Origin: Campylobacterales bacterium
GTDB taxonomy: Bacteria; Campylobacterota; Campylobacteria; Campylobacterales; JALSKU01
DNA: 49,584 nucleotides
Assembly (NCBI GenBank): GCA_027044945.1
Contig: JALUBK010000062.1
Location: forward strand, 1 to 49,584
Direction of reading: 5' to 3'
Below are positions 218 to 43,340 of this stretch, piece after piece. Position numbers and translations under genes: made by a program. Position 1 is the stretch's first letter. Every line of letters starts with the position of its first letter. The notes beneath the pieces were generated by a model. It did not search any database, was not told the DNA's origin, and worked only from the letters and a program-made list of their open reading frames with translations.

Positions 218-2035
218 TTATATCTCTTCTGCTTCTTCAACATCATATAAAATATCATCCATAGGATGTCTATACATAGGCATAGCAAGTCTTTTTTCGT
301 CAAGTATATGACCAATAAAACCTATGCTTCTTCCCACAATAAAGAAAGCATTTAAAGTTCCGCTTTCTATAAATTCGTTTATCTCTTCTTCACTATATCC
401 CAAAGCTCTCCACATATCTACCATAAGGATGCCGATAGTTCCATCAACATTTAAGATAAGATTATCTTTTTTACTTGTTGTGAGCTGTTCAACTTCTAAA
501 GCATAATTTAAAAGTAAAGTCTCAGGAAAATACTCTTTTGCAAATTTTTTAAGTCCTTCAACCCTTTTATCAGGATTTCTTAATGATTTTATCCTGTGTC
601 CGATACCAGGGATCGGAATACCTTGTTTTTTCATATAGCTTAAAAATTGTGCCGGAGTTAAATTGTTGTCGTTTGCATATTTAAAATATTTTGCGGCTCC
701 GTCTATCGCACCACCAAATCTTGGTCCAATTGTTAAAAGTCCAGTTACAAGTGCTTCTACTACACTTTTTCCAGCCCTTGCTGTTACTTTTGCATTATGA
801 GCTCCACTAACTGCTGGACCATGATCAGCTACTGTTTTTATAACAGTTTCTATAAAATCACTTGCCCATCTTGGATATTGTTTTTTAAACCATAAAAGTG
901 CTATAACATCACCGATAGTTTTACCGGTATCTGGAGTAGCAACCGAACTTATAGGAAAACCTGCATAAGTTGCTTCTTCACCTCTATCGTCACTAATAGT
1001 GCAAATAAAGTTCTTTGGTCTTCTATTGTTTGAAAAAGTTTTAACAACCGGTTCTTCTATCTCGGTTATAACTCCTTCATCTTTTAGTTTATTATAAACT
1101 GCATTGATAGTTTTTGGAAGGTCATTAAAGCTTTCTGGCACATAAAAACCTGCTTCTCTCATGGCAGCATTTTTAGCAATTGCTGTTTCTCTATCTGCAT
1201 TTGCACTAGCACCTGCATGACCAAATTGAACTCCAGAGCTAAAATGTTGAGCGATAGTTCCTATACACCAAGCTATGATAGGCTTAGTAATCTTGCCCTC
1301 TTTTACCGCTTCGATGACTTTATATTCTTCAGTTCCACCAACTTCTCCAAGAAGTATCATATATTTTACTTGAGGATTATCTTGCATTCTAAGAAGATTA
1401 TCTATAAAAACGGAACCAACAAATCTATCTCCGCCTATTGCAACACCTTCGGCAATACCGTCGGCATTTAAAGCAATAATATTTGACATTTCGTTAAACA
1501 ATCCACCACTTCTTGTAACCAAACCGCAACTTCCAGCACGATTGAGCTTTGAATTGATAATATTTTCTATGGTTCCACCAATATTTGCTATTTTAAAAGC
1601 TCCTGGAGCTATTGCACCAACGGTAGCAGGTCCTATAACAGTAACCCCAGCATCTTTGGCAGCTGCATTCATAGTTCTTGCCATTCTTTCAGGAATTCCT
1701 TCAGCAGTTACCATAATAGTTTTAAACTGTCCTTTTAATCCAATAGCCTCCATGGTTACATCATAAGCAGTTCTAAATGATCCAAAGTTTAAAAGAACAT
1801 CAGCATTTGGAAAATCTTTTGCTGCCTGGGTTGTGCTTTTAAAAACCGGTATCATAACTTCATCGTTGCCATAAAAGAATTTTTCAAATTTGTTATTACT
1901 TGTAGGAGCAACAATGGCTGCAACTGATGGTTTTTTTCTATCAATAGTATAGTCATAATCGAGCATTCTTTGGATAGCAGTTTTATTGTTATTCCAAAAT
2001 ATTGCCTGTGTATCTTTTGTAAATAATGCGCCCAT
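218..2035 (-). CDS. aclA: ATP citrate lyase, large (alpha) subunit
   Basis: AclA, with AclB, cleaves citrate to acetyl-CoA and oxaloacetate using ATP and CoA. This closes the reductive TCA cycle for CO2 fixation in the cytoplasm. The 605 residues match the usual length of about 600. Residues 1-330 are a succinyl-CoA synthetase alpha-like CoA-binding and ligase part. The phospho-acceptor is His273 in FGHAGASAN. Residues 340-600 form a citrate-synthase-like lyase domain with ADHGPAVSGAHN at 403-414 and PGIGHR (His480) at 476-481. The start ATG (2033-2035) has the very strong site GGAGGAGAAATAAA, which lies inside the end of aclB. The aclB stop is one base upstream, so the subunits are translationally coupled. 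No key residue is missing. Confidence 0.97.
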   Translation of the reverse strand: MGALFTKDTQAIFWNNNKTAIQRMLDYDYTIDRKKPSVAAIVAPTSNNKFEKFFYGNDEVMIPVFKSTTQAAKDFPNADVLLNFGSFRTAYDVTMEAIGLKGQFKTIMVTAEGIPERMARTMNAAAKDAGVTVIGPATVGAIAPGAFKIANIGGTIENIINSKLNRAGSCGLVTRSGGLFNEMSNIIALNADGIAEGVAIGGDRFVGSVFIDNLLRMQDNPQVKYMILLGEVGGTEEYKVIEAVKEGKITKPIIAWCIGTIAQHFSSGVQFGHAGASANADRETAIAKNAAMREAGFYVPESFNDLPKTINAVYNKLKDEGVITEIEEPVVKTFSNNRRPKNFICTISDDRGEEATYAGFPISSVATPDTGKTIGDVIALLWFKKQYPRWASDFIETVIKTVADHGPAVSGAHNAKVTARAGKSVVEALVTGLLTIGPRFGGAIDGAAKYFKYANDNNLTPAQFLSYMKKQGIPIPGIGHRIKSLRNPDKRVEGLKKFAKEYFPETLLLNYALEVEQLTTSKKDNLILNVDGTIGILMVDMWRALGYSEEEINEFIESGTLNAFFIVGRSIGFIGHILDEKRLAMPMYRHPMDDILYDVEEAEEI

Positions 2036-2036
2036 T

Positions 2037-3353
2037 TTATTTCTCCTCCAATGCTATACGAACTATCTCTGTTACATGTGTCTGCGGACCATAAACTTCC
2101 ATATAAAGTCCCAATCTATCTGCTGCTTCTTTTATATCTTTTAAACCTTTTTTATAGTTAGGTCCACCTCGTCTAACATATATTTTTGTTCCGACTTCTT
2201 TTAATTTGTCAGCATATTTTTCAAATGCTTGGATAATACCTGTAAAAGTTTTGGCAACATCAGTAAAGTTTGCAATAGCACCACCGATGATGAGTATTTT
2301 GCCTCTTCCTTTAGGATCTTTGTGCCTTGTCATGAGATCAAAAATAGTTTCGGCATAAAAAGCTGTTTCGGCAGTTGTTGGACCTCCGCTATATTCTCCA
2401 TAATTTGCAAGCTCATTAACATCAGTCATGTCCGCAATAGTATCAGCATAAACAACACTTGCTCCACCACCTGCAACCATAGTCCAAACTCTTCCCATAG
2501 GATTTAGTATGGTAAGTTTTAAACTTGCTCCGCTTTTTGCATCGGCTGCTGCGATAGCCTCTTCTTCAGGAGTTTTTTTATCCATTCCAAATGCAGTCGG
2601 AAATTCTATTTCTCCCCATTTGTCTTTCATCATAAATCCTGCTGTATCATCAAGTCTTGCAACAAGATCAAGAATATGCATATTGTTTTCTATAATAACT
2701 AAAGGATTTATCTCTAAATATGCAAAATTCAAATCTCTATAAAATTTAAAAAATTGTTTAGCAAAAGTTGTAAAAATTTCTTTTTTATCCGCAGGAATAT
2801 CTTGAGGAATATTTGCTCTTATTAGATGCTCAATATCTTCTTCACTGAAATTTATAGGAACAACAGCTTCATTTACTTTTTCTTCCCATCCCTCTTCTAC
2901 TTCCATTCCACCTTCAGATGACATATATAAAACATCATTTTCTCCAACTGTAGTCGCAGAAATATAATATTCTTGATCTTGTGAATGAGGAGTAAAAGGC
3001 TCAACAATAAAATGAGTCAAAATACCTTCTTGTCCAGAAATCAAAAGAGTTTCATGGGAACTTTTTTCATCTATCCAATTTGCAGCATCATTCAGTGTAA
3101 CATCGCCTGGTTTATTTACTTTAAAAAGAACCAATCCGTTTTTACCTCTTTTTCCAAATAACATATCAGGCTTTACAACCAAAGGCTTTTGGCTTAACCA
3201 CTCAAAACCATGCTCTTTTGCTTTTTCTTTTAATTCATCTCCACTGCTTACTAATACTGACTGAAAATCATACTTGAATCCACTAAAATATTCATTCCAG
3301 TGTTTTGCAAATATCTTTTTACCGTCATATTCGCGTATTGCTCTTTGAGCCAT
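2037..3353 (-). CDS. aclB: ATP citrate lyase, small (beta) subunit
   Basis: This is the ATP-grasp subunit of ATP citrate lyase and the usual marker gene for the reductive TCA cycle in this phylum. Of its 438 residues, 1-240 form the ATP-grasp part, with KPDMLFGKRGK at 61-71 and YLEINPLVI at 212-220. Residues 260-438 are the succinyl-CoA synthetase beta-like part. Near the C-terminus, GPQTHVTEIV resembles the citrate-binding loop of the human enzyme (ETHMTAIV). The start ATG follows AAGGAG. It is the first gene of a two-gene operon and has its own sigma-70 type promoter 30-60 bases upstream, fitting strong, independent expression of a central carbon-fixation enzyme. Confidence 0.97.
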   Translation of the reverse strand: MAQRAIREYDGKKIFAKHWNEYFSGFKYDFQSVLVSSGDELKEKAKEHGFEWLSQKPLVVKPDMLFGKRGKNGLVLFKVNKPGDVTLNDAANWIDEKSSHETLLISGQEGILTHFIVEPFTPHSQDQEYYISATTVGENDVLYMSSEGGMEVEEGWEEKVNEAVVPINFSEEDIEHLIRANIPQDIPADKKEIFTTFAKQFFKFYRDLNFAYLEINPLVIIENNMHILDLVARLDDTAGFMMKDKWGEIEFPTAFGMDKKTPEEEAIAAADAKSGASLKLTILNPMGRVWTMVAGGGASVVYADTIADMTDVNELANYGEYSGGPTTAETAFYAETIFDLMTRHKDPKGRGKILIIGGAIANFTDVAKTFTGIIQAFEKYADKLKEVGTKIYVRRGGPNYKKGLKDIKEAADRLGLYMEVYGPQTHVTEIVRIALEEK

Positions 3354-13834: not shown

Positions 13835-14894
13835 TATCCATCTCCTTGGCAGCTTTTTCAACTTCCATCACAAATCTATCCACCAATTCATTTTCACTTA
13901 GTTTTGCTATAATTTCACCTTTTTTTATGATAAGCCCACTATTTTTACCATAAGCTATCGCTACATCAGCACTTTTGGCTTCTCCTAAAGCATTTACAGC
14001 ACAACCCATAACAGATACATTTAAAGGAACTTTGATATGAGCAATTCTTTTTTCTATTTCGGCAACTGCTTTTACAAGATCTACTTCAATCCTGCCACAA
14101 GTAGGGCATGAAATGATATTGACACCCTCTTTTGCAACTCCACTATCTTTTAGGATGGCTCTTGCAACTTCTATCTCTTTTTCAAGTTCGCCTGTTATAG
14201 ATATTCTCATGGTATCTCCTATGCCTTCTAACAAAAGAGAGCCAAGTGCAATGGAGGATTTTACAGTAGAATGAAAAAGAGTTCCAGCTTCTGTAACACC
14301 CAAATGAAAAGGACAATCCACTAAAGGTCTTAACATTTTATATGCTTCAACAGTCCTTTGCACATCACTAGCTTTTAGTGAAACTTTAAAATTGGTAAAA
14401 TCCAAATCTTCAAGATATTTGATATGATAAAGAGCAGATTCCACCATACTTTTTGCACTTTGACCATATTTATTTTCAAACTGTTCTTCCAAACTTCCAG
14501 AATTTACCCCAATCCTAATAGAAATATTTCTATCTTTACAAGCTTTCACAACTTCTTTGACTCTGTTTTTATCTCCAATATTGCCCGGATTTATTCTGAT
14601 ACAATCCACACTTTTAGCCGCTATCAAAGCAAAGCGATAATTGAAATGAATATCAGCCACCAAAGGAAGTGAACTTCTTTTTTTTATCTCTTCTAAAGCA
14701 TAAGCATCTTCATAATCTGGCACTGCAACACGAACTATATCACACCCCGCAAAATGAAGTCTTCTTATCTGCTCTAAAGTCGCTTCTTTATCAGCAGTTT
14801 TACTAAATGTCATAGACTGAACACTAATAGGCGCATCACCACCAACTGCCACATCTCCTACATATATTTTTCTTGTTTTATATCTTTTTATCAT
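13827..14894 (-). CDS. ispG: 4-hydroxy-3-methylbut-2-enyl diphosphate synthase
   Basis: IspG carries out the reductive ring opening of methylerythritol cyclodiphosphate in the non-mevalonate isoprenoid pathway. The 355-residue bacterial short form has a TIM-barrel half ([14 protein letters not shown] at 22-35) and a 4Fe-4S half with Cys263 and Cys266 (SCPTCGRIE) and Cys298 ([11 protein letters not shown]). The ATG at 14894 lies inside the last codons of the HepT toxin gene (17-base overlap), so this essential gene is translated downstream of, and probably coupled to, a toxin-antitoxin pair. It overlaps dnaB at its 3' end. Confidence 0.96.
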
Positions 14895-15264
14895 TTTTTA
14901 TATCTTTTTTTATTAAATATAGAGTCTCAATGACTCCATCTATATGTTTAGCGCAAATTGAATAAATTATTTCTGCATCAATATCAAAATAGTGATGAGA
15001 GATAAAATCTCTTATTCCTTTAATCTTTTTCCAGTTTACTTGAGGATATTTTATCAATAATTTTTTATCAGTTATTTTATCTATATTTTTTAAACTCTCC
15101 CCTATGGCTATTAATTTGATACAAATACTATCAAGCTTTTCTTGTCCTATTTCAGTATCACAAAAATCTTCAATACATTTTGCATATTTGCATTTATTTT
15201 TAATCTCTTTAGAAGCTTCTATAATTTGAGACAATATATCTAAAATCAATATAGTATCAGACAT
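14878..15264 (-). CDS. hepT: HepT-like ribonuclease toxin (DUF86), type VII toxin-antitoxin
   Basis: A 128-residue all-helical HEPN protein. The catalytic motif RX4HXY is intact as RDFISHHY (Arg85, His90, Tyr92). In characterised pairs HepT cuts RNA, and MntA silences it by adding AMP to the Tyr of this motif. I start at ATG 15264, five bases after GAGGG; an in-frame ATG at 15276 overlaps the ribosome site. The first eight bases overlap the mntA end and the last 17 overlap the ispG start. That places it between two housekeeping genes, a likely insertion of accessory DNA. Activity is inferred, not shown. Confidence 0.88.
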
Positions 15265-15547
15265 AACTACCCTCATTTAAAATTCTTTTTTTTAAGTATG
15301 GATTCATTCTCTTTCTTAATCTCACCAAGTCAACTTTTATATTTAACTCTTTTTCTATCTCATCTTTCAAATCATAAAGTAAAAAATAATCACTCTCTTT
15401 GGTATCGATTGCTAAATCCAAATCACTGTTTGTATTTTGCTTATCTTTTGCAAATGATCCAAAAATAATCATCTTTGAGATTCCATATTTTGCTTTAAAA
15501 TCATTTTTTCTATGTGAAAGATATTGCATTACATCCTTTTTTTGCAT
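15257..15547 (-). CDS. mntA: MntA-like nucleotidyltransferase antitoxin, type VII toxin-antitoxin
   Basis: A minimal nucleotidyltransferase of 96 residues with the antitoxin signature GSX10DXD: Gly30-Ser31 and Asp42-x-Asp44. A third acidic residue sits in KVDLVRL. In known pairs it AMPylates and so inactivates the HepT partner. I start it at ATG 15547 because AAGGGA lies six bases upstream; the frame is open to 15589. A TATAAT (minus strand, 15579-15584) just beyond the priA stop may be its own promoter. The order antitoxin-toxin with eight bases shared is typical. Confidence 0.87.
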   Translation of the reverse strand: MQKKDVMQYLSHRKNDFKAKYGISKMIIFGSFAKDKQNTNSDLDLAIDTKESDYFLLYDLKDEIEKELNIKVDLVRLRKRMNPYLKKRILNEGSYV

Positions 15548-17455: not shown

Positions 17456-17917
17456 CTATTGTAGCAGATTGGAACATTGTGGTTTGGAATGATTACAATC
17501 AAAACTTCCTGTGCTATTATTGTAAGTAAAACTTGCATTTTTATCTTGAGTTATAAAAAAAGCATATTGGTTGTTTGCTGTTTTTACCCAGTGTCCATCC
17601 ATTCCTATTTTGGAATAAATTGGATATTGCAATATATTTGATTTATTGCCATCATTAAAATAAAAAAGTTTTTGATTGTTTACATTATAAGTATTAACAT
17701 TATCCAATACACTTGGATATGGAGGATATATGCCATGTAGCATATTTCTTGATTTTTGCAAAGATATACCATTTCTTATAGCTGATACTTGACTTTTTCC
17801 TTTAACTATTACAGCATCAGTTCTTGTTACCATCAGTTTTGGCACAGCAACAGCTGCTAATATACCAATAATTACAATAACAAAAATAAGTTCAACCATC
17901 GTAAAAGCTTTTTTCAT
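17456..17917 (-). CDS. Type IV pilin-like protein
   Basis: The 153-residue protein begins MKKAFTMVELIFVIVIIG: a short basic leader, Phe at the cleavage site, Glu at +5 and a hydrophobic helix. The globular part has the C-terminal cysteine pair FDCNHSKPQC, a likely disulfide loop as in type IV pilins and some pseudopilins. It is third of three tandem genes with almost the same first 35 residues and unrelated C-termini. The stop is followed at once by priA. GGAAAT precedes the ATG. The role (pilus, type II secretion or DNA uptake) is open. The comEC and priA neighbours are not proof of a link. Confidence 0.88.
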   Translation of the reverse strand: MKKAFTMVELIFVIVIIGILAAVAVPKLMVTRTDAVIVKGKSQVSAIRNGISLQKSRNMLHGIYPPYPSVLDNVNTYNVNNQKLFYFNDGNKSNILQYPIYSKIGMDGHWVKTANNQYAFFITQDKNASFTYNNSTGSFDCNHSKPQCSNLLQ

Positions 17918-17932
17918 TTTGGTATTTCCTTT

Positions 17933-18385
17933 TTAGTATTTAATAGTATTTCCACTTAAGCGAACTTTATATAAACTTGGATTAACCTCTTTTTGAAGAT
18001 ATTGACAAAGTTTGTTTGTAGTGCTAACATTGCTAACATTTAAGTCATCATTAGTTTCACTATGAATAACTTCCAACTTTATACAATCAACTCCACCCAT
18101 TTTTATGATGCTTTGATTTGCTTCACTACAATTTGCTTCATTTGAAGAAGCTAATTTAGAAAGAGAGTTTGACATTTCGCAAAGGTTACTTTTTGTTGTT
18201 TGTTGAGATACTGCATAAGATGTTATTTCACTTATAGCATTTCCTATATCCATCATCATAGTAGAAACTCTAGCATCATCTCTTGTAGCCATCATTTTTG
18301 GTATCACAACAGCCGACAATATGCCTATAATAACAATAACAAAAATAAGCTCTATCATGGTAAAAGCAGATCTTTTGCCTTTCAA
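17933..18385 (-). CDS. Type IV pilin-like protein
   Basis: The 150-residue protein has leader MKGKRSAFTMIELIFVIVII, then the helix and PKMMATRDDAR. The start is TTG 18383-18385 with a weak AAGG upstream. Cysteines at about 68, 85, 101 and 127 could form two disulfides after export. The N-terminus closely matches its neighbours (PKLMATRTDAK in the 18440 gene), so the three probably arose by tandem duplication, while the globular part has diverged. It is separated from the gene before it by a perfect 12-bp hairpin, which may lower its expression. Confidence 0.87.
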   Translation of the reverse strand: MKGKRSAFTMIELIFVIVIIGILSAVVIPKMMATRDDARVSTMMMDIGNAISEITSYAVSQQTTKSNLCEMSNSLSKLASSNEANCSEANQSIIKMGGVDCIKLEVIHSETNDDLNVSNVSTTNKLCQYLQKEVNPSLYKVRLSGNTIKY

Positions 18386-18404
18386 ATATGCAACCTTAGG
18401 GTTT

Positions 18405-18432
18405 AAGATAAGGGAAACAATTCCCTTATCTT
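18405..18432 (-). repeat. Perfect 12-bp inverted repeat between pilin genes
   Basis: Positions 18405-18416 (AAGATAAGGGAA) pair exactly with 18421-18432 around an ACAA loop. It lies eight bases beyond the stop of the first pilin gene. There is no U-tract on the minus strand, so it is more likely an mRNA end-protecting or partial-termination hairpin than a full terminator. Confidence 0.7.
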
Positions 18433-18439
18433 TTGGCTA

Positions 18440-18919
18440 TTAAAATTTTACACTACTTCCTGTAATTGTAAAATTTTGATCAGGAATTCTTGCTTCTACA
18501 CCTTTGCATATAGCTCCACTGCCTATACCATCTACTTGCATAGTTGTATCATTTATATCTATTGCGATACAATTTTCAGGATTCCCACTATCATCTTGAG
18601 TTTTTATTATTCCTTCAACTGTAGTTCCTGGAAGACTTGTTACAATAAAAGAGGTATTTGAGTCAAATGCTTTACCTTGTGCTTCCATAGCTTTAAGAAC
18701 TTGAGACATTTTTGTAATATTGTCATCAAGCTTACCTTGTGAAGTTACATATGCAGGAATTTCACTTATAGCTGAAGATACTTCTTGTGATACTGCCGAA
18801 ATTTTAGCATCTGTTCTTGTTGCCATTAATTTTGGAATGGCTACTGCTGCCAATATACCTATGATAACTATGACGAAAATCAATTCGATCATTGTAAAAC
18901 CACTTCTTCTGTTTTTCAT
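18440..18919 (-). CDS. Type IV pilin-like protein, first of the cluster
   Basis: I start this 159-residue protein at ATG 18919 (MKNRRSGFTMIELIFVIVII) because AAGGAG lies seven bases upstream; the frame is open for 14 more codons. After the N-terminal helix come PKLMATRTDAKIS, a helical stretch and a beta-rich globular domain with two cysteines (NCIAID and AICKG). Being first after the promoter and followed by a stabilising hairpin, it is the best candidate for the major subunit of this set. A distinctive feature is the 5' leader stem-loop at 18942-18965. Confidence 0.88.
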   Translation of the reverse strand: MKNRRSGFTMIELIFVIVIIGILAAVAIPKLMATRTDAKISAVSQEVSSAISEIPAYVTSQGKLDDNITKMSQVLKAMEAQGKAFDSNTSFIVTSLPGTTVEGIIKTQDDSGNPENCIAIDINDTTMQVDGIGSGAICKGVEARIPDQNFTITGSSVKF

Positions 18920-18941
18920 TTGAGACTCCTTAAGTTTTTTT

Positions 18942-18965
18942 ATAAATGACACACTTGTCATTTAT
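18942..18965 (-). promoter_or_regulatory. 5' leader stem-loop of the pilin cluster
   Basis: A perfect 10-bp stem (ATAAATGACA with TGTCATTTAT) and a 4-base loop. With a -10 at 18974-18979 the transcript should start near 18967, so the hairpin would sit at the extreme 5' end of the mRNA, a known way to protect abundant transcripts from decay. Confidence 0.55.
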
Positions 18966-24187: not shown

Positions 24188-24967
24188 TTATTTTTTCTTT
24201 TTTTTCTTTTTATTTGGATTTGAAAAGAAAATTAAATCTTCGGTAGTTTTTATATCTTGCGGAAGATTATTTAAAGAAGTTTTCAAAATCATTAATGCAC
24301 TCAAAGCATCGGCATAAGCTCTATGATGATCACCTATGTTAATATTTAATTTTTCTTTTAAATAAGAAAGTCCGTATTTTTCTGATTGTATTGTTTTTTT
24401 TGCTAAATTAATTGTGCATAATTTTCTATTTAAAAGTTGTTGATGACCATATTTTTCTAAAGATTGAGATATAAAATTATAATCAAAATTAACATTATGG
24501 GCTATAAAAACACAATTAGACAAAAAATCTCTAAAATCTCCTAAAACATTTCTTATTTTTGGTGCATTTTTTAAATCATTTTTTGAGATATGAGTTATTT
24601 TTTCTATATATTCTGGAATAAAATCACAATAAACAAAACTGTTAAATTTATCTACAATTTCATTATTTTGATATTTTATTGCCCCTATTTCTATAATTTG
24701 ACTGTTTTTTGGACTACTTCCATTTGTTTCTATATCCACAATGCAATATGTATCTTTTTGAAAATTTGTCCATCTGCTTTTTGTATATAAAATTTGATCT
24801 TTTTCAACTGTATCTATACCGTTAGAACAAATAAATTCCAAAGCATTATTATATTCGTTATTATTGATAATCAAAGAACAGTCTTTGCAGTCTTTTATAA
24901 AATTATCTTTTGTTATTCCCTCTTTAGATGCCATTTTATCAATAGTTTTATCCAATTTATCTTTCAT
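24188..24967 (-). CDS. dnaQ: DnaQ-family 3'-5' exonuclease (DNA polymerase III epsilon-like)
   Basis: A DEDDh exonuclease of 259 residues that would proofread for the replicative polymerase. Residues 1-65 are a helical extension; the nuclease follows. Exo I is CIVDIETNGSSP, Exo II is AHNVNFDYNF, and the catalytic His-Asp is in HHRAYADALSA. The C-terminus ends in seven lysines. It overlaps trpF by 11 bases and is the last gene of a run beginning with an HDOD gene. An rpe-dnaQ link also occurs, from memory, in C. jejuni (Cj0451-Cj0452), which favours the polymerase subunit over a generic exonuclease. Confidence 0.85.
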   Translation of the reverse strand: MKDKLDKTIDKMASKEGITKDNFIKDCKDCSLIINNNEYNNALEFICSNGIDTVEKDQILYTKSRWTNFQKDTYCIVDIETNGSSPKNSQIIEIGAIKYQNNEIVDKFNSFVYCDFIPEYIEKITHISKNDLKNAPKIRNVLGDFRDFLSNCVFIAHNVNFDYNFISQSLEKYGHQQLLNRKLCTINLAKKTIQSEKYGLSYLKEKLNINIGDHHRAYADALSALMILKTSLNNLPQDIKTTEDLIFFSNPNKKKKKKK

Positions 24968-25568
24968 TATTTTTTACTGCTTCCATAAAATATTTTATTT
25001 TTTTAAAATCTTTTTTACCTTTTTCTTGCTCAACTCCACTGCTAACATCAAAACCATAAAAACCATATTTTTTTAATTCATATATATTTTGATAGTTAAG
25101 CCCTCCTGCCAATATAAATTTTGAGCAATCAATACCATCAAACCATTCTGTTTTTATCTTTTTTCCTTCTCCGCCATAATTTTTTACAAAGGCATCTACC
25201 AAAACATATTCATTTTTAGGAATTTTTAATAAATCTTCTTTTGTTTTTATTCTAAACACTTTTATATAGGGAAATTCTAAATCATTATATAAACTTTCTT
25301 TAGCTTCAAAATGAATTTGAGATAAAGTTAATTTCGTTTCTTTAAAAATAGAATTTATCTCATCAGCTTCAACATTAACAAACAATCCAACTTTATGAAC
25401 AAAAGGAGGAAGATTTTTTATAATTTCTTTAGCATTTTCTGGCGAAATATATCTTGGAGATTTTTTATAGAAAACAAATCCCAATGCATCTGCTCCAGCC
25501 TCACAAGCTATAAGAGCATCTTTCAAATTTGTTATGCCACAAATTTTTACTTTTGACAAGTTACTCAT
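24957..25568 (-). CDS. trpF: Phosphoribosylanthranilate isomerase
   Basis: TrpF isomerises phosphoribosylanthranilate to the ribulose form in tryptophan synthesis. The 203-residue TIM barrel has the catalytic base Cys10 in KICGIT, the acid Asp in VLVDAF, and phosphate loops LAGGLN and GFDVSSGVE. One strand usually reading VQLHG is SQIHF here. The gene shares ATGA with rpe upstream. Other trp genes are absent, so it is separated from its pathway except for the amidotransferase gene at 4640. Confidence 0.93.
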   Translation of the reverse strand: MSNLSKVKICGITNLKDALIACEAGADALGFVFYKKSPRYISPENAKEIIKNLPPFVHKVGLFVNVEADEINSIFKETKLTLSQIHFEAKESLYNDLEFPYIKVFRIKTKEDLLKIPKNEYVLVDAFVKNYGGEGKKIKTEWFDGIDCSKFILAGGLNYQNIYELKKYGFYGFDVSSGVEQEKGKKDFKKIKYFMEAVKNNER

Positions 25569-26206
25569 ATATTTTTTAAACTTTCAATCGCTTTTTTATA
25601 ATCATTTTTAAAAACATAACTTCCTGCGACTACTACATCAACTCCTGCTTTTTTTAAATCATATATATTTTTATCATTTACACCACCATCAACTTCAATA
25701 AGTGCATTCGAACCTTTTTTTACAAGCAATTTTTTCAATCTTTTTGCCTTTTCTAAAACTGATGGAATAAATTTTTGACCACCAAAACCAGGATTTACAC
25801 TCATCAAAAGTATCATGTCAAGATTATCAAGTAAAAATTCCACACTTTCAGGTGGAGTTGAGGGATTTAAAGCTATTGCAGATTTAATACCCAAATCTCT
25901 AATATGTTGCAAAAGTCTATGAGGATGCTTCTCTTCTTCAATATGAAATGAAATATACTTTGGTTTCAAAGGAGCAAACAAATCAACAAAAAAAGTATTA
26001 TTTTGCACCATTAAATGAATATCTAATGGCTTTGTTGCCACTTTTGCTATACTTTGAACAACAACTGGACCAAATGTTAAATTTGGCACAAAATGACCAT
26101 CCATAACATCTATATGAATTTTATCTGCTCCAGCTTCACAAATATTTTTTACCTCATCTTCTAATCTTCCAAAATTACTTGAAAGCATACTTGGTGCTAC
26201 TAACAT
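25565..26206 (-). CDS. rpe: Ribulose-phosphate 3-epimerase
   Basis: Rpe interconverts ribulose-5-phosphate and xylulose-5-phosphate. The 213-residue TIM barrel shows HIDVMDGHFVPNLTFGP (metal and proton-shuttle site), VNPGFGGQKF and EVDGGVN. The start ATG follows AGGAGA at the end of the upstream gene, eight bases away. Full length, nothing missing. Confidence 0.96.
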   Translation of the reverse strand: MLVAPSMLSSNFGRLEDEVKNICEAGADKIHIDVMDGHFVPNLTFGPVVVQSIAKVATKPLDIHLMVQNNTFFVDLFAPLKPKYISFHIEEEKHPHRLLQHIRDLGIKSAIALNPSTPPESVEFLLDNLDMILLMSVNPGFGGQKFIPSVLEKAKRLKKLLVKKGSNALIEVDGGVNDKNIYDLKKAGVDVVVAGSYVFKNDYKKAIESLKNI

Positions 26207-26214
26207 ATTTCTCC

Positions 26215-27600
26215 TTATCTGCTTAAAAAAAGTTTTAATACTTCACCATCAAAATCCAAATCCACTAAAACACCTTTTCTATTTCCAAAAAATGTCAATG
26301 CTTGTTCTTTGGAGCTAAAAACTCTAGGCAATGTTATTTCGGATTTAATTTTATGCAAAATAAAATTTGATTTAATTTTTGAAGCTACTATATTTGAATA
26401 TTCAGCCATTCCATCTAATATTTCTTCTTCATTATTTGTGTCATTTAAAAAAATTTTACAACACTTCAAAAGAAGTTTTTTAGAAAATACCATTGTTACC
26501 AATACATTTATTTCTCCATAAACTCCGATAGTTGATATAATATATTCTTTATCATCTAAAGATAATTTATCCATTTTCACACTTATTTTTTTACCTGTTT
26601 TTTGCGAAAGCATTTCTGTTATATGCATACTAATATCTACAAAAGTATTCAAATTTGATATTACATTTTTTGTCAATTTATAGTTTTTATCAGGAACCAT
26701 TCCTCCACCTAAAGCTTCTTTTTGAATATCTTCATCAGATTTAAACTCTTCCATATTTTTATAAAGAATTATACCCGAATCTTCAAGGTCATTTTTTAAT
26801 TTTTCGCTTATTTTTTTATCATCTACTCCAATCATGCAAAATGTAGTTCCGTATTCTGCTCCTGCGGTTGAAAGCTTTGCTAAAAAATTAATCCCGTGAA
26901 TATTCATAGAAGAGACTTTTGTTATATCAAAAACAAAAACTTTAAATCCTATAATTAAAAGATTGTTGTGATATTTCAAATCAAACTTTTGAGAAATAGT
27001 AGAATCTATAAAATTACCCAAATTATAAAAGATAATATTATTATTTATATAAATATTTACTTTTGATTCTGCATTTGCTATATAAGAATTATGTATAATT
27101 ATACCATATTTTGTATATTCTTCTTTTTTCTCAAGAAATTCATTTTTATTTTTGGCAACATAAGGTTTATATCCAACTTCATATAGCTCTATTGCTAATT
27201 GATTTTTTTGATCACTATCTTCTTCATAAACTAAAATCTTTTTTTCAAAATCTATATTTTTATTAAAAAATAAATTTAATACTTTTAGATTTTCGAATAA
27301 AGAAAAATCCAAATTATTATCAAACATCGATAAAATTGTTTTATATTTTTTCTCATCATATTCACACAAGCCTATCGGACAATGAATTTTATTTTGTATC
27401 TGTTTAAGCGAATCTGTAATAATAGAAAGTCCTTTTTTGTTAAAAAATATAATTTTTTTAAAAGAGACAAATACGGCTTCAGGCTTTTTTGAAACAACAA
27501 AAGAGATATCATTTGGCTCTATGATAGATTCGGCATTCACACCATCTAAAAAACCTTGTGAAGTAAAAATAGCTATATTATTTTTAAAAACAGGTCTCAT
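26215..27600 (-). CDS. STAS / receiver-like / STAS / CheX-type phosphatase protein
   Basis: A 461-residue signalling protein. Residues 1-110 look like a STAS fold. Residues 118-180 look like a receiver with its aspartate position changed (IIIHNSYI). Residues 205-285 are a clearer STAS domain (SSMNIHGINFLAKLSTAG). Residues 300-461 resemble CheX. The CheC/CheX phosphatase signature DxxxExxN is intact: Asp396, Glu400, Asn403 in DGMAEYSN. If active it would dephosphorylate CheY-P and so set flagellar switching. It shares ATGA with the HDOD gene upstream and lies eight bases before rpe. The domain calls are by eye; the CheX part is the firmest. Confidence 0.65.
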   Translation of the reverse strand: MRPVFKNNIAIFTSQGFLDGVNAESIIEPNDISFVVSKKPEAVFVSFKKIIFFNKKGLSIITDSLKQIQNKIHCPIGLCEYDEKKYKTILSMFDNNLDFSLFENLKVLNLFFNKNIDFEKKILVYEEDSDQKNQLAIELYEVGYKPYVAKNKNEFLEKKEEYTKYGIIIHNSYIANAESKVNIYINNNIIFYNLGNFIDSTISQKFDLKYHNNLLIIGFKVFVFDITKVSSMNIHGINFLAKLSTAGAEYGTTFCMIGVDDKKISEKLKNDLEDSGIILYKNMEEFKSDEDIQKEALGGGMVPDKNYKLTKNVISNLNTFVDISMHITEMLSQKTGKKISVKMDKLSLDDKEYIISTIGVYGEINVLVTMVFSKKLLLKCCKIFLNDTNNEEEILDGMAEYSNIVASKIKSNFILHKIKSEITLPRVFSSKEQALTFFGNRKGVLVDLDFDGEVLKLFLSR

Positions 27601-28388
27601 GATAACTCAACTATTTTACTAAAATCTTCATAAATATCTTGCACAAATCCAATATCAAATTCTACAAAATCATTAATTCCTGCTTCAATATATTCTGGTT
27701 TTGAAATTTCATAAAATACTAAAAGATGAAGATATTTTGCCAATTTCGAATACATTGTTTCATTATTAATTTTTTTTGAAAAATAATCAATAAATTTGAT
27801 TGATTCTTTGTTTAATTCCCATTTTATACATATTTGTTTTAATATATCAAATATTGTAAGTCCGCTTATTTTATACAGTATTTCATCATAACTGATGGAT
27901 TGGGACTCTTTTAACAAAATTATATCTTCATAATTTTCTTCAAAAATTTCTTCACACACCACCAAAGACCCAGGAATTAACGATACAACAGAAGATATAT
28001 AAATATGATTATAATTTAAATGATTTAATATTTTATTCCAATAGAATATTAAATTCGATTGCAAAAATTGAAAATCGGTATTATTTATCTTAAAAACTTT
28101 CCATTTTTTTGGAAGTATCAAAGAAGCATAATAAGCATTTACAATTTGAGAAGCTCTTTCTATCCCTAAAATACTAAATATCTGTTTTACATCTTTTACA
28201 TAATTAGTAAAACCAAATATAGGTTTATTTATAATATTTATAAGATAATTTGAAAAAGCCAAATCCAAAGAAGCTTCATAAGAAGCTTTCGTTAAATCGC
28301 CCTCTTCTAAATAAAAAGCACACTTTCGGACATTTTCAGGAATAGCAGGTATATTTTTTAAAAACTTATCAATTTTTTCTTTTATCAT
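27597..28388 (-). CDS. HDOD-domain protein
   Basis: A 263-residue protein with an HDOD fold over about residues 1-190: FLKNIPAIPENVRKCAFYLEE, then helices with ILGIERASQIVNAYY. HDOD proteins lack HD metal residues and act as scaffolds in signalling, often beside chemotaxis or second-messenger genes. I take ATG 28388 as start. A TTG at 28436 is also in frame but would put the start inside the probable promoter. It is the first gene of the run HDOD, CheX-like, rpe, trpF, dnaQ. Confidence 0.72.
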   Translation of the reverse strand: MIKEKIDKFLKNIPAIPENVRKCAFYLEEGDLTKASYEASLDLAFSNYLINIINKPIFGFTNYVKDVKQIFSILGIERASQIVNAYYASLILPKKWKVFKINNTDFQFLQSNLIFYWNKILNHLNYNHIYISSVVSLIPGSLVVCEEIFEENYEDIILLKESQSISYDEILYKISGLTIFDILKQICIKWELNKESIKFIDYFSKKINNETMYSKLAKYLHLLVFYEISKPEYIEAGINDFVEFDIGFVQDIYEDFSKIVELS

Positions 28389-28455
28389 AATATGAATTTT
28401 ATCTTTTATTTTATAAAATATTGTTGAATTAAGCAAGATTTTTGTTATTTTTCAA

Positions 28456-40892: not shown

Positions 40893-43340
40893 TCACTTTA
40901 TAACTAAATTGACAAGTTTATTTGGAATATATATCTCTTTTATTATATTTTTTCCATCAATCCATTTAAATACTTTTTCTTTTGCTTTTTTTATTATTAT
41001 ATCTTTTGTCAAATTTGTATCTATTTCAATTTCATCTCTTTTTTTACCATTAACCGTAATAACAATTTTAACACTATTTTCATCAAAAACTTCTTTTATT
41101 ATTTCTATATTTCTGAAATTTTTTCTTTCAAAAAGCTTATCGCTAAGTTCCCAGCAAACATGAGGAATTATAGGCTCTAAAATATTTAATATTATATAAT
41201 ATCCTTCACTCCATACATTATTATTATTTTGAGCATTTAGTGCATTTAGTGCTTCCATGCAAGAAGCTATTAATGTATTGAAACTATAATCTCTATCATA
41301 AGTTTGTTTTGATTTTTTTAAAGCCTCATAAACTTTTTTTCTAGCAAACTTTTCTTCTTTGTTTAAACTATTGTGATCAATCAAAACCAAAGAATCCATT
41401 TTACTGGCATTATTTGATCTTTCATACAATCTTTTTATGAATTTAAAAGCACCCTCTACTGCATTATCATTCCATTCCAATTCTTTTTGAGGAGGTGCCG
41501 CAAAAAGTATAAAAAGTCTTGCAGTATCAGCTCCATATTTACCAATAATATCATCAGGATCAACAGTATTTCCTTTTGATTTACTCATTTTAGAACCATC
41601 TTTTAAAACCATTCCTTGAGTTAAAAGTCTTTCAAAAGGTTCATCTACATTAATATATCCCAAATCTCTTAATGCTTTTGTAAAAAATCTTGCATATAAA
41701 AGATGTAAAATAGCATGTTCAATTCCACCAATATATTGATCTACATTCATCCAATAATCTATATCTTCTTTGTCAATTCCTACTTCTTGCCACTTCGCAG
41801 GATTGGTTGCATATCTTAGAAAATACCAACTTGATTGCACAAATGTATCAAGAGTATCAGTTTCTCTTAAAGCATCTTCTCCACATTTTGGACATTTACA
41901 ATATTTCCAAGTAGGATGTGTTTCTAATGGATTTCCTTCGCCTGTTATCACTATATCATCGGGCAAAGAGATGGGTAAATTTTCAATTTTTTCAGGAACC
42001 AATCCGCATTTTGAACAATGAACAAAAGGAATAGGAGCACCCCAATATCTTTGTCTGCTAACTCCCCAGTCTCTTAATTTGTAATTTATCTCTTTTTTTC
42101 CTAAATTTTCTTTTTCAAAATAAGAGATGATAGCCTTTCTGGCTTCTTTACTTTTTAATCCACTAAAATCTTCGCTATCAACAAGTTCTCCATCTTCGCA
42201 CAAAGGACCATCTGTTTTCATTTTTTTTAACGGTTTAATAACATACTTAACAGGTAAATTATATTTTTGAGCAAATTCATAATCTCTTTCGTCATGAGCT
42301 GGGACAGCCATAACCGCTCCACCACCATATCCAATAAGAACAAAATTGGCAACCCAGACAGGGATTTTTTCTTTTGTAATAGGATGCAAAACATCAATCT
42401 CAAGACTAACACCTTCTTTATCTTGCATAGATCTTTCTTTTTCACTCAAATTTTGCATATTTTTAATAATTGCTATTTTTTCTTCACTCAATAATTTATG
42501 CTTTATGATATATTTTACGATTGGATGTTCTGGAGCTAATGCAGAATAACTTATTCCAAAAATAGTATCAGCTCTTGTTGTAAAAACTTCATATCTATCA
42601 AATTGATTTGATAATTTCTTTTTAGAATCTTCGCTTAATTCAAAATCAAAACTAAGACCTTCGCTTTTCCCTATCCAATTTTCTTGCATTTTTAAAACTT
42701 GTGGAGGCCATTTCCCTTCCAATGTTTTTAAACTTTCCAATAACTCTTCGGCATATTTTGTAATGGCTATATAATATCCGGGCATCTCTTTTTGTTTTAC
42801 TTCGTTACCGCATCTCCAACAACATCCATTTTCAACTTGTTCATTAGCTAAAACAGTTTGGCAACTTTCGCACCAGTTTACAGTGCTTGATTTTCTATAC
42901 ATTAACCCTGATTCAAACATTTTAATTATATACTCTTGTTCAAATTTTGTATAAATCGGATCACTTGTAGCAAATTCTCTTTTTTTGCTAAAAGATAATC
43001 CTAAACAATCAAGTTCTTTTCTCATATAATCAATATTTTCATAAGTCCATTTTTTTGGATGAAGATTATTTTTTATAGCAGCATTTTCAGCAGGCATACC
43101 AAAACTATCCCATCCTATGGGGTGAAGAACATTAAACCCTTCTTTTCTGGCATTTCGAGCTATTGCATCACCAATAGAATAATTTCTAACATGCCCCATA
43201 TGTATCCTACCACTAGGATAAGGAAACATACTTAAAATATATTTTTTCTTTTTCTTTTTATTGTCTTCAGGCTCAAAAGAGTTGTTTTCACTCCAAAATT
43301 GTTGCCATTTTTTTTCAATTTTCTTAGGGTCATAATGCAT
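40893..43340 (-). CDS. leuS: Leucyl-tRNA synthetase
   Basis: A class I synthetase of 815 residues that charges tRNA-Leu. The HIGH motif is HMGH at 47-50 and the KMSKS loop [10 protein letters not shown] is near residue 582. An editing domain lies around 220-410 ([17 protein letters not shown] and ERDYEFA). A four-cysteine zinc-type patch WCESCQ...CCWRCG precedes it, and another CSKCG...CPKCG is present. It is normal in length. AAGGAGAAAATTTT precedes the ATG. Confidence 0.97.

Follow-up and report, generated by a model that had tools for sequence, protein, structure and literature searches.

Control of phosphorylated CheY (CheY~P) is unusual in Campylobacterota, in which CheZ, CheX and CheV occur together. 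In CheX, an acidic residue enters the active site of the receiver domain and an asparagine orients the attacking water molecule (PMC3035606). F3-class Campylobacterota encode a stand-alone CheX upstream of fliNO, a CheA with an extra receiver domain is a marker of this class, and Arcobacter and Nitratiruptor are among the lineages reported to lack it (Mo et al. 2022, PMC9321776). Furthermore, mutation of several motility HDOD proteins alters swimming (PMC11004494, PMC11813219); no molecular partner of these HDOD domains turned up in the literature that we searched.

Here we describe a 461-residue protein in which a CheX domain follows two STAS domains and half a receiver domain, encoded beside a cognate HDOD protein in a 49,584-nucleotide stretch of contig JALUBK010000062.1 from a Campylobacterales bacterium (the whole stretch is hereafter referred to as the window). 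Searches of the open literature on CheX with HDOD and/or STAS, and on CheX domain architecture, returned no description of a STAS–CheX protein, and surveys of Campylobacterota signalling, whose main text covers CheX or STAS, mention neither the STAS–CheX protein nor HDOD there. We therefore found no paper, in the open literature searched, on this HDOD-coupled, four-part signalling protein, which adds a further phosphatase-like protein to CheY~P control in the phylum. We propose, at about even chances of being right, that it is an accessory CheX-type response-regulator phosphatase of Campylobacterota chemotaxis that is regulated through its STAS domains and its HDOD partner and has become a pseudophosphatase in one branch.

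Gene order at the locus

The STAS–CheX gene occupies positions 26215 to 27600 of the minus strand and shares an ATGA with its upstream partner, the cognate HDOD gene (27597 to 28388, minus strand), whose product has 263 residues counted from the ATG at 28388; a further in-frame TTG lies at 28436. Across the phylum, the open reading frame (ORF) of the STAS–CheX protein shows about 22–70% identity, and is therefore not a chance reading frame. Directly after it lies rpe (25565 to 26206), a ribulose-phosphate 3-epimerase gene by sequence, and the conserved neighbours trpF (24957 to 25568) and a dnaQ-like exonuclease gene (24188 to 24967) complete the order HDOD–STAS/CheX–rpe–trpF–dnaQ, all on the minus strand. 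No chemotaxis genes were found among the window ORFs scanned. A preliminary description of this DNA had placed the pair, joined by the ATGA, upstream of rpe–trpF and apart from chemotaxis genes; both ORFs and their overlap were confirmed, and the gene order and, among the ORFs scanned, the separation are correct.

Elsewhere on the minus strand of the window, two-subunit ATP citrate lyase genes (218 to 3353) fit a reductive TCA-cycle autotroph, and three adjacent genes with type IV pilin-like N-methylation motifs (17456 to 18961) lie upstream of a priA-like gene. A HepT-like ribonuclease gene (14878 to 15276; PF01934, 2.4e-15) stands just upstream of gcpE, with no antitoxin gene recognised for it among the window ORFs scanned.

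Domain architecture of the STAS–CheX protein

The AlphaFold2 model of the protein, based on a 59-sequence alignment (mean pLDDT 85.1, pTM 0.60), and the accompanying searches delineate STAS1 (residues 1 to 115; 27256 to 27600), a half receiver (residues about 119 to 175; 27076 to 27246), STAS2 (residues 181 to 297; 26710 to 27060) and a C-terminal CheX domain (residues about 311 to 461; 26215 to 26670, including the stop codon), all on the minus strand. Pfam detected CheX at residues 354 to 447 (7.4e-11, 42.4 bits; cut-off 27) and STAS at residues 181 to 261 (7.9e-7, 29.3 bits; cut-off 22.6). By sequence, STAS1 gave a weak match only (TIGR00377, E 0.006), and in the model it has the complete STAS secondary-structure order. 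A Foldseek search against the PDB ranked Thermotoga maritima CheX first (1xko_A, E 4.6e-9, TMt 0.77), the matches also including CheX of the CheX–CheY complex (3hzh), the CheC/FliY structures 1xkr and 4hyn and, at lower ranks, the STAS domains of SpoIIAA/RsbV. Pfam and Foldseek thus each match both CheX and STAS and agree with AlphaFold and the profile searches on the CheX-like and STAS-like regions recognised earlier.

The receiver-like stretch is modelled as β-α-β-α-β only, rather than as a complete (βα)5 fold. It had been described as a receiver with a replaced phospho-aspartate, which applies to the window protein (His170), but the receiver fold is present only as its first half, and Glu or Asp occupies this position in 40 of the 59 aligned family members. 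Because the second half is absent, phosphorylation of this segment is unlikely in any of the 59.

STAS2 is the most constrained domain, with 24 of its 117 positions invariant. Both STAS phosphosites are replaced, N54-K-K-G57 standing for D-S-S/T-G in STAS1 and N233-I-H235-G236 for D-S-S-G in STAS2, and no variation is seen at N54, G57, N233 or H235 across the 59-sequence alignment. A search of the genome for an RsbW/SpoIIAB-type kinase gave no HATPase_c_2 match above the Pfam cut-off (best 1.6e-4, in a 438-residue frame). With neither a phosphosite nor a kinase above the cut-off, partner switching by the STAS domains was rejected, and the earlier term 'STAS-regulated' is unsupported in its classical sense of Ser/Thr phosphorylation.

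Retention and loss of the catalytic site

The CheX domain carries the signature D396-x3-E400-x2-N403, exactly where the preliminary description had placed a DxxxExxN motif. In a profile search of PDB sequences, E400 and N403 align with the ExxN of T. maritima CheX, and both residues are present in all six genomes examined of the window's genus. These sequence features make phosphatase activity of the window protein plausible. Across the family, scored without the broken gene of genome G243, family f10 has lost ExxN in 37 of its 38 members and the four-domain proteins of f20 (relatives of Sulfurospirillum arcachonense) in three of three; every other lineage examined keeps it intact.

In f10, 31 of the 37 copies without ExxN still have an adjacent HDOD gene, and the f20 four-domain proteins share an identity of 0.46–0.47 with the window genus in their STAS domains and of only 0.28 in CheX. 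The loss of ExxN with HDOD kept and the drift of CheX in f20 therefore show that the phosphatase part and the STAS/HDOD parts are separable. Since whole lineages lose ExxN while still encoding both the protein and the cognate HDOD, phosphatase activity cannot be the universal function of the family; lineages that have naturally lost the catalytic Asn provide a ready-made comparison between enzyme and pseudo-enzyme.

These losses, together with the finding that STAS2 rather than CheX is the most constrained domain, count against an accessory phosphatase. The losses with HDOD kept, the drift of CheX in f20 and the resemblance, seen by Foldseek, of the CheX fold to the FliM middle domain favour a mainly non-enzymatic protein that serves as a scaffold or for titration. 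In this reading, joint action would lie with HDOD and the STAS module, and CheX would only bind a receiver or a C-ring partner. Such a role seems unlikely to us, given that nearly all other lineages, among them subfamily B (below), retain the D/E/N residues despite very long evolutionary distances, and that the window's own copy is intact.

Distribution and subfamilies

Among 298 Campylobacterota genomes, each at least 90% complete, 108 contain the STAS–CheX family, 93 in the four-domain form and 15 only in a three-domain form without STAS2. A contig scan of a named collection was seeded with a narrower alignment, the family-wide one being too diverse; its best 80 loci have titles that are Campylobacterota or unassigned, and Sulfurimonas, Sulfuricurvum, S. 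arcachonense, Hydrogenimonas and many vent metagenome-assembled genomes are among the loci listed. No match occurred in plasmids or viral contigs, and a mobile or plasmid origin was rejected.

A tree of 98 proteins splits into subfamilies A and B (SH-aLRT 98). Subfamily A (68 entries), to which the window protein belongs, comprises all HDOD-linked members and those with HDOD elsewhere in the genome or lost, whereas subfamily B (30 entries) is never HDOD-linked, always has ExxN and includes both four- and three-domain forms. A paralogue with three domains (STAS–half receiver–CheX; about 355 residues; loci L025, L160 and L205–L220) is encoded by f20 and by a small number of f16 genomes. It invariably has ExxN and never lies beside HDOD; in genomes G185 and G215 it accompanies an ExxN-lost four-domain copy.

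Subfamily A nearly always lies upstream of rpe–trpF–dnaQ, and rpe stands beside the HDOD/STAS–CheX pair in 75 of the 80 named loci. Such a neighbourhood could be read as that of a metabolic or DNA-related regulator of the rpe–trpF–dnaQ operon with no role in motility. However, the presence of the gene follows FliM and CheW (below), and its f15 members lie between pabB-like and aroE-like genes and its f13 members beside a ruvX-like gene (neighbours read by eye), and we regard this reading as very improbable. Because other lineages hold the gene elsewhere, the conserved carbon/tryptophan neighbourhood is probably not functional and a metabolic role tied to rpe/trpF is unlikely; rpe is probably a conserved neighbour outside the mechanism.

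The HDOD partner

The partner protein matches Pfam HDOD (1.5e-5, 25.0 bits; cut-off 22.9), and its all-helical model (pLDDT 92.4) retrieved Campylobacter jejuni Cj0248 (1vqr), 3hc1 and SadB (9qzk) in Foldseek. It lacks the HD dipeptide and thus has an HDOD fold without the HD metal site. The pairing with HDOD, proposed earlier from the window alone, extends to the subfamily: the cognate HDOD gene is directly upstream of subfamily A in all 79 named loci whose contig reaches that position, and 65 of the 66 genomes with a cognate HDOD have an intact full-length partner, the remaining one (G243) having a broken copy. In G243 (locus L204), the STAS–CheX gene is interrupted by stops and a change of frame, through decay or an assembly error, and the cognate HDOD looks intact elsewhere in the genome. 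Generic HDOD paralogues are also present in the window genome, on contigs C63 and C40, the latter (L228, 747 to 1568) lying two genes, one of them uvrA-like, from the cheX–fliN locus.

Evolutionary distances of HDOD covary with those of the partner's domains (partial rank correlation 0.41–0.62), comparably to the covariation among the protein's own domains (0.50–0.59). From the gene pairing and this covariation, we infer that HDOD binds the STAS–CheX protein. Because the correlation is highest with CheX (0.62), HDOD may dock on that domain rather than on the STAS domains; the comparison carries no significance test and in itself says nothing on which domain is bound. The strictly paired partner provides a testable target for the motility effects of HDOD proteins.

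Association with flagella and chemotaxis

The family occurs in 108 of 265 genomes with FliM and in none of 33 without it (Fisher p 1.3e-7, uncorrected for phylogeny). It is likewise missing from all 28 genomes with a divergent FliM, which may represent lineages, Arcobacter and Nitratiruptor among them, that are reported to lack the F3 class. As 157 FliM-containing genomes have no family member, flagellar motility in general does not require the family. Within genus g16, all 14 genomes with CheW contain the family, whereas the three without CheW (G043, G055 and G270) do not, and these three keep FliM and 12–18 receiver domains. Genome G194, also without CheW, has kept a STAS–CheX copy that has lost ExxN and HDOD and sits on a long branch, a pattern that, as expected, fits decay of the gene. 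The family is thus associated with the chemotaxis system by co-occurrence with CheW and FliM, without physical clustering. The tie to motility suggested in the preliminary description accordingly has comparative support, but none from the window itself, where no chemotaxis gene lies nearby. Since the HDOD/STAS–CheX pair is found only in flagellated species across the phylum, it probably provides an extra control on swimming direction.

The window genome has FliM, a cheV–cheA–cheW cluster on contig C58, arranged as in the F3 class, and, beside fliN on contig C40, a stand-alone CheX of the published type (42742 to 43092). Identity of the window gene with the published F3 CheX was ruled out, as both are present and the window gene is at a different locus, upstream of rpe and not of fliN–fliO.

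Proposed mechanism

In the accessory-phosphatase model, Glu400 and Asn403 of the CheX domain would enter the active site of a receiver in its phosphorylated state, CheY~P being the most probable candidate, and accelerate hydrolysis of the phosphate, in addition to the genome's stand-alone CheX. The two non-phosphorylatable STAS domains would form a fixed docking and regulatory module, and the co-made HDOD protein, by binding the STAS–CheX protein, would set its activity or cellular location, with control presumably running from HDOD to the phosphatase. In the branch that has lost ExxN (Campylobacteraceae-like genomes and S. arcachonense relatives), the complex is probably a binding-only pseudophosphatase.

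The target could instead be another receiver: CheV, the receiver expected in an F3-class CheA, serving as a phosphate sink, or a response regulator outside chemotaxis. The stand-alone CheX is already available for CheY, and contig C58 encodes a 781-residue CheA together with a CheV-like gene; an extra-receiver CheA marks the F3 class (PMC9321776). However, the solved CheX complex is with CheY (3hzh) and we see no sequence evidence pointing to another target; we accordingly give this alternative a low probability. Returning to CheY~P as the target, a more specific version, which we put forward tentatively, is that the HDOD/tandem-STAS module reads a signal and tunes CheY~P through the fused CheX domain, the protein of one lineage having switched during evolution from an active phosphatase to a non-hydrolysing, CheY~P-binding pseudophosphatase. 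If true, the module would give Campylobacterota chemotaxis a signal-input branch that has not been described before.

Comparison with known systems

The window CheX domain has the same fold as CheX of T. maritima (1XKO) and of the Borrelia CheX–CheY3 complex (3HZH), with the ExxN residues aligned residue for residue. Whereas known CheX proteins are single domains of about 155 residues, here CheX is the C-terminal part of a 461-residue STAS/half-receiver protein. CheC, which has two catalytic motifs, and FliY, which has a FliN tail, share the CheX-superfamily fold, but neither has STAS domains, unlike the window protein. The F3 CheX beside fliNO resembles the window gene in its phylum, its CheX motif, its scattering away from cheVAW and its co-inheritance with flagella. 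The N-terminal half shares the STAS fold with the anti-sigma factor antagonists SpoIIAA/RsbV, from which it differs in having no phosphorylatable Ser/Thr, and in a genome with no RsbW-type kinase above the cut-off. Finally, the partner has the HDOD fold in common with the motility HDOD proteins C. jejuni Cj0248 (1VQR), GsmR, SadB (9QZK) and PSPTO_4229, and is distinguished from them as a separate, closer-knit family tied to one partner.
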